IMG/VR virus record: IMGVR_UViG_3300032053_000675
Span: 1 to 20,279 of that record
Reading direction: 5' to 3' (one strand)
Source: a virus
Length of the DNA: 20,279 bases
A program made the translations under genes and the position numbers. The first letter of the stretch is position 1, and every line of letters begins with the position of its first letter. Of this stretch, positions 16,521-20,133 are shown piece by piece. A model generated the notes under the pieces. That model had not been told where the DNA came from and searched no databases. It saw only the letters and a list, made by a program, of their open reading frames with translations.

Positions 16521-16957
16521 TATACAAGTACCTGTGTTGCAATAATTTTGAGTTTAGCCCCATTTAAATGCTGAACCGGAACTGAACGAGGAACATTAAC
16601 ATAAATCCAAAAAGGATTATAAGTTACAATTCCTGTTATATTGGGAATATCAATAGTATTTCCAGGAGTTATAGAATTCCATTCATCTATCGACGGCTGT
16701 GTATCTCCGGTTTTTAATTTAATCATAAAACCTGAAGTACCAATTGTTCCCAACAAATCAAGACCACCACTATATAAATAAGGAACTACTTGAACACTTT
16801 CATAATTATATAAAACATTACTATTTCTAACATAAAGTTCTTTTTCTATAGTCCCGCCAACACGACCATCAAAACTTAATATTAAAGAATTAGTATATAA
16901 ATTATCTATACTATAGCTAACTGTATCTCCAGAATTTTCATATATAGCTAATGTCAT
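16520..16957 (-). CDS. Beta-rich virion-type protein (145 aa)
   Basis: The family name is not recalled. The sequence looks like a compact beta-sandwich: LILSFDGRVGGTIEKELYVR, then VQVVPYLYSGG, DTQPSIDEWNSITPGNTIDI, and ITGIVTYNPFWIYVNVP. This arrangement (GxxGGxxEKxLYVRN, QPSxxEWN, NPFWIYVxVP) recalls unannotated small beta-structured proteins found beside terminase and portal genes of tailed phages. AAGGAG lies six bases before the ATG. The ATG overlaps the TerL TGA stop (ATGA), so it is coupled to TerL. A neck, head-vertex or decoration role is possible (inference). No signal peptide or membrane segment. Confidence 0.65.
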   Translation of the reverse strand: MTLAIYENSGDTVSYSIDNLYTNSLILSFDGRVGGTIEKELYVRNSNVLYNYESVQVVPYLYSGGLDLLGTIGTSGFMIKLKTGDTQPSIDEWNSITPGNTIDIPNITGIVTYNPFWIYVNVPRSVPVQHLNGAKLKIIATQVLV

Positions 16958-19900
16958 CTAAGACTCCTTGATTTAGGCCTCGATAAACCACCCCGGCCAT
17001 TATTAGGTTTTATTCTACCAGACCATACTCTACTTAACAAGCTTTCTTTGTCCCATTTGGGCATAGGTTCATCTCTACTAAATCCGTCCCATCCCCAAAG
17101 ACCTACTTCTGGTTGGATATCTTTCTGGTTCCCGCCAGGAATTGGCGAAGAACTTTTTAAATCTCCTCTGTTCGTCGAAGGCTTATTCTCTGTCTTATTG
17201 TTTTCGTTTTGAATAAATATCGTCGAAGACTTCGTATCTGCTTCGTCTGGGACTGCTTTATTGATGTTAGGAACAAAGCCAACATTATTTGTATGTTTAA
17301 TTTTTCCATAGGCACTTTTTTCTAAAGAGAAAGATACCAAGGCCAACATTAGAGAATCTAATAAGTGATCTCCTGCTCTTCCGGGTTTAAAAGATTTGCG
17401 GCCTGTATCAGAAATTCTATTAATAACATATCCTTGTAATTGTTCAGTTAAAATCTTATCAGAAGCTGGATATCTAACTATTTGATTTTCAAAACATCTT
17501 TGAGCATTTTCGACTAAAAATTCTTTAGCGGCTTTAGGAATTGGTTGTTTAGTAAAAGGATCTATTACTTCGATATTTTCCCCAAAACCAAAACCCTTAA
17601 CTTTTCTCAAATTTGAATCAGGATGATTAGCTCCTCTTTTCTTATCCTTCAAAGAAGTCCAACCCCAATTATGTAACTGCTCAATATTCATAGACCCATG
17701 ACCCTTATCTACATAAATAAATTCAGGCTGCCAAAATCGATTCATCTTAGCTACTTCATCACACCCAGCAGTTTGAGTCCATCCTTCTCTACTAACAATC
17801 TTTCTATCTAATAAATAATATTTTTGATCTTTAAGATTTAAGCCCAAAACAGAGATATTAGTTCCATTTGCTGTATCGTTCCAATCAACCCCTATCGCAT
17901 ATACCCAATTTTTGTGATCTGGAGCTATGTCTCCATAATTATAGTTACTTTGAGCAGCCTCAATATACATATGCTGAAAAATACCTTCTTCTATCTCACC
18001 AAATTCTGCCAAAATTTCGTGTTTGTATCCCATAGAAGAACTACTCTCACGAAAAGTTCTTTCCATGTCGTCTCCCCAAAGAGGATTAATAGAAGATGGA
18101 TAAAAAAATTCTTTCCAACCCATAGACTGACACGTCTCATAAAATCTTTCTCTTTTACCTGTTGGGGTAGAAGACATTAAAACAGAAGCATTAGGATAGT
18201 TAGTAATAATTGCTAAAGTAGCATCCATATCGCTTTGATTTAAATAATCTGATTCATCATAAACCAAACAATGAGCGTGCTGCCCGCGAGCACTTGCTGC
18301 TCCTGATCCACTCTTTGTTCCTGCCGTAAATCCCGTAACTTTTGAACCATTGGTTAATTCAAGGGTATAATGAGGAGACTGTACACTATGCAATATAGAA
18401 TTATTTAAAGAAACAGTCCTTTTTAATAAAGATAACATTCCGTCAAAAAGTAATTTAATTTGAGACTGAAATGGAGTTATAACGACTATATGATATCCCT
18501 CTTCGGGTGAAATCCCAGGTTTAATAAATAATCTATATAACATCGAAATCATTAATACTTCTGTTTTCCCTAATTGCCGTCCGCAATTATGTAGAATAAT
18601 TGAAGAATTTGCTATAAAAGTATGAACTGTATCTAAACTTAAATCAAAAAGTTCATCAGCAGGTAATAATTCAATAGACTTAATATGATCCCAAGTAATA
18701 ACACCTTCTGATTTAACTTTATTTTTTTCTTCATTTTGAGTAGCAATTAATTTCCCAATGGCACTTTGTTTTTCTTTTCCAAAAATTACACCACCAACTA
18801 ATTCAAAAAATATAAGAATATCTTTAGACTTTGAAATATGAAGTTTATAAAAATCTCTAGTTCCTTTATAAGACTTTTTACTCTCAATTCTAATATATGA
18901 ATTTATTCCAAATTTTAATAATAATGCCTTAATTTGTTTTAGATAAGGTAGAGCCGTAGAAGCAATTCCTAATGAACATCTATAAGTATCTCTATTGTTC
19001 CTTTTCACTACCTCAACCCATCCATCACCCGCCCACATTCTTCCTAATAATAATCCCGCCTGACGACGACTTAAATCAAAAATAAAATTAGGCAACAATC
19101 TTTTTTCCATTACTACGTCTTTACAGCCAATAGACTCTAACCATTTAGAAACCGGATTTAAAACAGATCTTCCATTAGAAATTATTAAATCAAATCCGTT
19201 AGATTTTGAATATCTTTTACAAGAACTTCCTAAATTATTACAACAGATTTCAAACTCATCCAGATATAAACTATTATTATTTGTAAATTTTGCGCTTTGT
19301 CTTTCCCCATAACTTCCATCAGTGATAAAATAACCAAGAATCTTTAAATGATCATCTGTTATATTTAAATTATCTAATTGTTGAAATAGAGAAGTATTAT
19401 TACAAATTGCAATACGATCTCCTGCTTGAAGACCTTGCTTTATCGTTTTCCATTGCATAGGTAAATCTCGAACAAAATAACTATGACTTTTATCTACTAA
19501 ACCTTCTTTAATTAAAAATGGATGATCATTAGAAACTATAACTTCATGTCCTTGTTTCGTCTTAACCTTATATCTTATCTTCTTTCCAGTAGAAACAATA
19601 TCTAAAATAGTTGAAATTTTTGAAGTTAAAGTTTTTTCATCTACAGATATAACTCTATCTCCAACCTTTAGATCTTTTATTATTCTAGTTTGCCCATTTT
19701 CTAGAGTAATTTCTGTATTGGGATCTACACAACGTAAAACTTTTCTTCTCGATTGACATCTTAATATTTCAGCTTGATATGGGCGATGATACTTACTTTT
19801 AAATTCACGACCTTCAGATAAACAAGTTTGTTTCCAGTCGTAATATCCAGCAGGATCTTTACGTTTCCATATTTCTCCATCAGGATCTAAACAATACCAA

Positions 19901-20133
19901 TCTAGATTCTTTTCTGCCCATTTAACTGGATCTAATAAAGTTAAAGCTTCTTCGCTTTCAATATTAGATAAACTAGAAAGTAATTTATTGTCTATATATT
20001 CTTTAGGGATTCCATCACATTTAATTTTAAATACTGGTTTTATATTTGCGTTTTTAAAATCATTTTCATGTTTCTTCTTATACTTTTTAAGACAAGAAAA
20101 ACAAGTTTCTGTACATTTGTTAAGGTCAAACAT
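16954..20133 (-). CDS. Terminase large subunit, intein-containing precursor (1059 aa; 677 aa after splicing)
   Basis: DNA-packaging motor ATPase and headful or site-specific nuclease. The extein comprises residues 1-134 and 517-1059. The Walker A motif CGRQLGKT (517-524) directly follows the intein and RRKVLR precedes it. Walker B is HCLVYDES (D626, E627), with a coupling motif MSSTPTG (653-659). The nuclease RNase H-like acidic residues are D750 (IGVDWN), D809 (YVDKGHGS) and D922/D926 (GDHLLDSLMLAL). The C-terminal tail (about 950-1059) is polar, then basic (SRPKSRSLR), possibly contacting the portal or the small terminase. The N-terminus has a cysteine cluster (C7, C11, C14). The ATG has no ribosome site but follows an extended -10 promoter. 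The stop overlaps the next ATG (ATGA). The spliced length is normal for TerL. Confidence 0.93.
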   Translation of the reverse strand: MFDLNKCTETCFSCLKKYKKKHENDFKNANIKPVFKIKCDGIPKEYIDNKLLSSLSNIESEEALTLLDPVKWAEKNLDWYCLDPDGEIWKRKDPAGYYDWKQTCLSEGREFKSKYHRPYQAEILRCQSRRKVLRCVDPNTEITLENGQTRIIKDLKVGDRVISVDEKTLTSKISTILDIVSTGKKIRYKVKTKQGHEVIVSNDHPFLIKEGLVDKSHSYFVRDLPMQWKTIKQGLQAGDRIAICNNTSLFQQLDNLNITDDHLKILGYFITDGSYGERQSAKFTNNNSLYLDEFEICCNNLGSSCKRYSKSNGFDLIISNGRSVLNPVSKWLESIGCKDVVMEKRLLPNFIFDLSRRQAGLLLGRMWAGDGWVEVVKRNNRDTYRCSLGIASTALPYLKQIKALLLKFGINSYIRIESKKSYKGTRDFYKLHISKSKDILIFFELVGGVIFGKEKQSAIGKLIATQNEEKNKVKSEGVITWDHIKSIELLPADELFDLSLDTVHTFIANSSIILHNCGRQLGKTEVLMISMLYRLFIKPGISPEEGYHIVVITPFQSQIKLLFDGMLSLLKRTVSLNNSILHSVQSPHYTLELTNGSKVTGFTAGTKSGSGAASARGQHAHCLVYDESDYLNQSDMDATLAIITNYPNASVLMSSTPTGKRERFYETCQSMGWKEFFYPSSINPLWGDDMERTFRESSSSMGYKHEILAEFGEIEEGIFQHMYIEAAQSNYNYGDIAPDHKNWVYAIGVDWNDTANGTNISVLGLNLKDQKYYLLDRKIVSREGWTQTAGCDEVAKMNRFWQPEFIYVDKGHGSMNIEQLHNWGWTSLKDKKRGANHPDSNLRKVKGFGFGENIEVIDPFTKQPIPKAAKEFLVENAQRCFENQIVRYPASDKILTEQLQGYVINRISDTGRKSFKPGRAGDHLLDSLMLALVSFSLEKSAYGKIKHTNNVGFVPNINKAVPDEADTKSSTIFIQNENNKTENKPSTNRGDLKSSSPIPGGNQKDIQPEVGLWGWDGFSRDEPMPKWDKESLLSRVWSGRIKPNNGRGGLSRPKSRSLR
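18586..19731 (-). mobile_element. Intein with LAGLIDADG homing endonuclease in TerL (382 aa)
   Basis: Protein-splicing element, residues 135-516 of the precursor. The N-terminal splice motif begins with C135 (CVDPNTEITLENGQTRIIKD). Block B is GHEVIVSNDHPFL with H204. The homing endonuclease has two LAGLIDADG motifs, LGYFITDG (D272) and LLLGRMWAGDG (D370), both with intact acidic residues. The C-terminal blocks are LFDLSLDTVHTFIAN and HN (H515, N516), followed by extein C517. This is a class 1 arrangement: Cys1, terminal His-Asn and Cys+1. The insertion is in the P-loop, a known TerL insertion hotspot. All blocks look complete, so splicing and endonuclease activity are likely (inference). One sampled 60-base line in the endonuclease part has 13 G/C, against 21 in an extein line, hinting at a separate origin. 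Confidence 0.95.

Follow-up and report, generated by a model that had tools for sequence, protein, structure and literature searches.

The large terminase subunit (TerL) of an uncultivated tailed phage is interrupted by a class 1 LAGLIDADG intein placed directly before its Walker A motif. Judged by established intein biology, on which we base splicing, DNA cutting and homing, the element very probably splices out of the protein, homes by means of its endonuclease and behaves as a selfish element, not as a regulator.

The DNA analysed, an IMG/VR record of 20,279 bases (hereafter the window), encodes on its minus strand a head-and-packaging module in which the TerL, portal and major capsid genes are accompanied by several others that are structural or unknown. 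The host protein of the intein is identified as TerL by its PHROG 2 match (Table 1), with the portal and capsid genes downstream. The window phage and its TerL relatives share the gene order TerL, 145-residue protein, 211-residue protein, 612-residue protein, portal, 733-residue protein, which indicates that the contigs matched through TerL are true relatives. Searches of the window for RNA families and tRNAs found none.

Table 1 Coordinates of terL and its intein in the window, and intein sites in the same TerL clade
Feature	Position	Strand	Evidence or carriers
terL with in-frame intein	16954..20133	(-)	1059-aa precursor; ORF intact; PHROG 2 terminase large subunit, E = 2.4e-24
N-extein, residues 1-134, ending ...RRKVLR	19732..20133	(-)	HMM alignment to intein-free TerLs up to the junction
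LAGLIDADG intein, residues 135-516, 382 aa	18586..19731	(-)	Pfam/NCBIfam; AlphaFold and Foldseek; empty sites in relatives
Block B Ser67-Asn-Asp-His70	19522..19533	(-)	Sequence; His70 invariant in intein alignments
First LAGLIDADG helix, residues 126-138, acid Asp138 (GYFITDG)	19318..19356	(-)	Model helix; Asp138 invariant in alignment
Second LAGLIDADG helix, residues 222-236, acid Asp236 (RMWAGDG)	19024..19068	(-)	Model helix; Asp236 invariant in closer intein set
C-terminal His381-Asn382 of intein	18586..18591	(-)	Sequence; TIGR01443
Walker A CGRQLGKT, first Cys the +1 splicing residue	18562..18585	(-)	Sequence; aligned to GRQAGKT/GRRTGKT of relatives
C-extein, residues 517-1059, starting CGRQLGKT	16957..18585	(-)	30-50% identity to other TerLs
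Site A	LR/C[ST]xxRK, 9 residues upstream of the window's site		L016, L029/L031, L056/L057, L106, L108, L109
Site B	R/CGRQLGKT, before Walker A position 1		Window only
Site C	GR[QR]/xGK[ST], 4 residues (12 bp) after the window's site		L021, L046, ME3
Site D	GK/[ST]		L037-L039, KLEB27-3, second intein of L109
Site E	GF(S)/TAGTKSG		L040
Site F	DEADYL/S at Walker B		Second intein of L056/L057

Intein anatomy and fold

The insert in terL is a class 1 LAGLIDADG intein. It matches the Pfam families Intein_splicing (E = 3e-15), LAGLIDADG_3 (E = 2e-15) and Hint (E = 1.6e-8), and the NCBIfam models intein_Nterm (TIGR01445, E = 3.7e-9) and intein_Cterm (TIGR01443, E = 2e-4) start at residue 135 and end at residue 517, respectively. 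An AlphaFold model built from nine related inteins has a HINT and endonuclease fold (mean pLDDT 86, pTM 0.85); among PDB structures Foldseek ranks the TliVMA intein (7qsu, E = 1.6e-21) first, ahead of PhoVMA, PI-PfuI and PI-SceI. The significance of the Pfam, NCBIfam and AlphaFold matches makes a chance assignment untenable, and the coordinates proposed for the insert in the first-pass annotation are exact.

The frame reads ...RCQSRRKVLR / CVDPNTEI...IANSSIILHN / CGRQLGKTEV, the intein itself starting CVDPNTEITLENG... and ending ...IANSSIILHN ahead of CGRQLGKT. In precursor numbering it begins with Cys135 and ends with His515-Asn516, followed by Cys517 as the +1 residue. The class 1 residue set is complete in intein numbering (Cys1, block B Ser67-x-x-His70, block F His370, His381-Asn382 and Cys+1). 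Block B usually takes the form TxxH, and the window intein has Ser in place of Thr. Two LAGLIDADG helices, each with a terminal acid, are present in the AlphaFold model, as expected of a two-motif endonuclease. Sequence, alignments and model thus bear out the earlier listing of both LAGLIDADG acids and of C135, H515, N516 and C+1. The HINT splicing domain and the host protein share one ORF (Pfam, TIGR models, AlphaFold/Foldseek), and removal of the intein leaves a continuous host protein, for which empty alleles exist (for example, L024 and L011). Base composition was considered as a mark of recent arrival and rejected, the GC of the intein (0.28) lying inside the range of the phage genes (0.25-0.42).

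Junctions and intein-free relatives

Relatives were found with a C-extein alignment of the window, Bacillus phage KLEB27-3, Acinetobacter phage ME3 and Moorella phage MTATph1, to the last three of which the window C-extein is 30-32% identical. This alignment query recovered 80 TerL relatives from viral contigs, up to 50% identical. Such relatives were reached by alignment queries only; single-protein scans gave no matches, whether run with the intein or the C-extein against viral contigs or with the C-extein against genome contigs.

Most of the relatives lack an insert and read KRKVFR-IGRQAGKT at the point occupied in the window by RRKVLR / intein / CGRQLGKT. The intein-free contig L024 reads RKVFR-CGRQIGKS, with the same +1 Cys (junction sequence RKVFRCGRQIGKS), and the junction of the intein-free TerL of L011 is RKVFRIGRQAGKT. 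The boundaries of the intein are settled because these relatives read straight across the junction. On the aligned sequences the insert directly precedes the first Walker A residue, the placement before CGRQLGKT that had been proposed from the window alone. Intein-free alleles, which the first-pass annotation had suggested seeking in close relatives, are indeed present at up to 50% identity; none above about 50% protein identity to the window TerL was found among the relatives.

Only Cys, Ser or Thr at the +1 position permits splicing. Of the 68 sequences with a readable pattern at site A, 39 have Cys there. Among the 57 distinct intein-free relatives that are readable at site B, L024 alone has Cys; the other 56 have Ile, Ala, Leu, Met, Val or Trp. 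Site B is therefore open only to rare Cys alleles or to co-conversion that carries the Cys along, and the scarcity of a +1 Cys in these sequences may explain the rarity of the site.

An intein hot spot around the TerL P-loop

The TerL clade of the window contains six intein sites (A-F; Table 1), four of which fall in a 16-residue stretch around the P-loop, and inteins occur in 7 of the 43 clusters formed by the first 80 relatives. The site-C position is also taken by related inteins in other kinds of TerL (L095, L097, L105 and L107). Among the sequences found, site B is occupied in the window alone: scanning about 2.9 million viral contigs with two DNA patterns (CGRQxGK[TS] directly after His-Asn; HN[CS]GR[QR]xGKT) returned no second copy, both patterns demanding a penultimate His, so that variant intein ends would escape them.

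Some proteins carry two inteins. The 1455-aa TerL ORF of L056/L057 has full-length inteins upstream of the P-loop and at Walker B (DEADYL/S). In L109 just 16 residues separate a class 1 intein from a second one at site D (after GRRTGK), which starts with Ala (AIDVETKIP...) and ends VTHN/S. A Trp close to block B (EEHTW), a block F Cys (VKCISVE) and the Thr that precedes HN give this second element the look of a class 3 intein.

Further inserts were seen outside the P-loop region. The TerL of L099 has a LAGLIDADG intein apparently in its nuclease domain (DQWN/C...HN/SVQSL), whereas the published mycobacteriophage TerL inteins all lie inside the ATPase domain. The portal ORFs of L024 (4658-8032) and L040 (12445-16035) share an insert at LGEG[DE]/CY...IQGN/T that looks like a LAGLIDADG intein ending in Gly-Asn; the window's portal is uninterrupted at the corresponding point (LGESDTSN).

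Lineage of the intein

The first-pass annotation had left open whether the lineage and DNA target of the element were new. Both questions can now be answered in part, in that its nearest relatives are other TerL inteins, mostly at the site 4 residues downstream. The closest is the site-C intein of L046 (about 36-39% identity), followed by that of L095 (34%; site C of a different TerL) and by site-A inteins (26-30%). Phylogenetic analysis places the site-A inteins in a clade of their own (support 100/100) that excludes the window intein and has the site-C intein of L107 as its sister, while the window intein forms a long branch among the site-C inteins without firm placement.

The closeness of sites B and C (12 bp) is compatible with a shift of site. 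One could envisage a single lineage that moved among the neighbouring sites A, B and C, which fall within 13 residues, a P-loop-aimed endonuclease founding sites a few codons away and the window intein being one such newly founded site. The window's site would then have been possible because its allele has Cys at a position otherwise filled by Ile, Ala or Leu. We regard this history as doubtful and, given the weak intein tree, do not claim a site shift.

The description of the intein as recently mobile finds no backing: no second site-B copy was found, the closest intein is distant and base composition is within the phage range. Its intact catalytic acids point only to an endonuclease without visible decay, not to recent mobility.

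Comparison with known systems

There are precedents for inteins in TerL, for inteins in P-loops, for TerL sites lying close together (TerL1-a/-b) and for TerLs with two inteins. Mycobacteriophage TerL1-a to -e are, like the window intein, inserted in the ATPase domain, sites a and b in Walker A and site e in Walker B (PMC5050341), in keeping with the first-pass annotation's statement that inteins at TerL P-loops are known. Those hosts belong to a different TerL family. TerL1-a lies between Lys and Thr of GKT, with b one residue away, whereas the window junction (R/CGRQLGKT) is 7 residues earlier and thus outside GKT. TerL proteins with two inteins are known from the crAss-like Delta group (PMC7886860). 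No published intein at exactly this TerL position was found in the literature searched, including the survey PMC5050341.

Within the clade, site-A inteins resemble that of the window in being full-length LAGLIDADG elements with Cys1, His-Asn and Cys+1. The L046 intein (IMGVR_UViG_3300048070_000144, L046:1-1011; site GRQ/SGKT) shares its TerL clade and endonuclease motifs (GYFITDGS, RMWAGDG) with the window, but ends Lys-Asn/Ser instead of His-Asn/Cys and is truncated N-terminally by the end of the contig. Lacking the usual penultimate His, it may splice slowly or in an altered manner. Two named isolates, Bacillus phage vB_BauM_KLEB27-3 (GK/T) and Acinetobacter phage vB_AbaM_ME3 (GRR/TGKT), have P-loop inteins in related TerLs at sites different from the window's. 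The KLEB27-3 (L002) site-D intein has lost its endonuclease acids (LLAGGH, FYGVSG), a decayed endonuclease where that of the window is intact, and ME3 has a 137-residue mini-intein without endonuclease. The TliVMA intein has the same HINT and LAGLIDADG architecture at 16% identity, in an archaeal VMA host protein.

Discussion

In the proposed mechanism, TerL would first be made as a 1059-residue precursor, from which Cys1, His70, the C-terminal His-Asn and Cys+1 would excise the intein through an N-S shift at Cys1, transesterification to Cys+1 and Asn cyclisation. Joining of R134 to C517 would rebuild the Walker A loop and give a 677-residue TerL. The endonuclease domain would be expected to cut intein-free terL of co-infecting relatives at or near the P-loop codons, and repair of the cut gene would copy the intein in (homing). 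The intein would persist as a selfish element, retained because its site is an indispensable, conserved part of terL. Mycobacteriophage TerL inteins of the ATPase domain splice quickly, and two cut intein-free partners (PMC5050341). At the window's own site neither a closer intein-free allele nor a second site-B copy was found that would document homing; a +1 residue that is mostly Ile, Ala, Leu or Met would also leave fewer alleles able to accept the intein without a co-converted Cys.

Unspliced TerL must have a disabled P-loop, and the first-pass annotation had suggested that splicing could time packaging. In such a switch, splicing would be delayed until a signal arrived, either late in infection or from the environment. 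RadA and mycobacterial DnaB provide documented cases of inteins that splice conditionally (PMC5790916, PMC6195587). A timing switch is nonetheless very unlikely here, and the suggestion gains no support: of seven mycobacteriophage TerL inteins, the five that were tested each spliced quickly (PMC5050341), most relatives of the window have no intein at any site, and the sequence indicates no control element. A nearby Cys in the N-extein is also present in intein-free relatives and so did not arise for control.

An element that still splices but is inherited vertically with an inactive endonuclease would account for the failure of the pattern scans to find further site-B copies in roughly 2.9 million viral contigs, and has a parallel in KLEB27-3, a relative without either endonuclease acid. 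We consider it improbable for the window intein, in which both acids, both helices and the full-length endonuclease domain are intact. That the insert, known from a single contig, is a non-splicing insertion or assembly artefact is extremely unlikely given the perfect extein continuity with intein-free relatives, the presence of every splicing residue and the independent related inteins in other TerLs.

The window intein is thus best read as a selfish element, a further TerL intein and a specimen for splicing and homing at a site absent from the earlier survey (PMC5050341). The packaging motor of one phage clade emerges as an intein hot spot unusually rich in sites, some of its proteins carrying two inteins. 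With six sites, four around the P-loop, and two-intein proteins, the clade offers a good natural set for studying site choice and site change by homing elements within an essential motif, and the same set bears on whether splicing ever regulates packaging.
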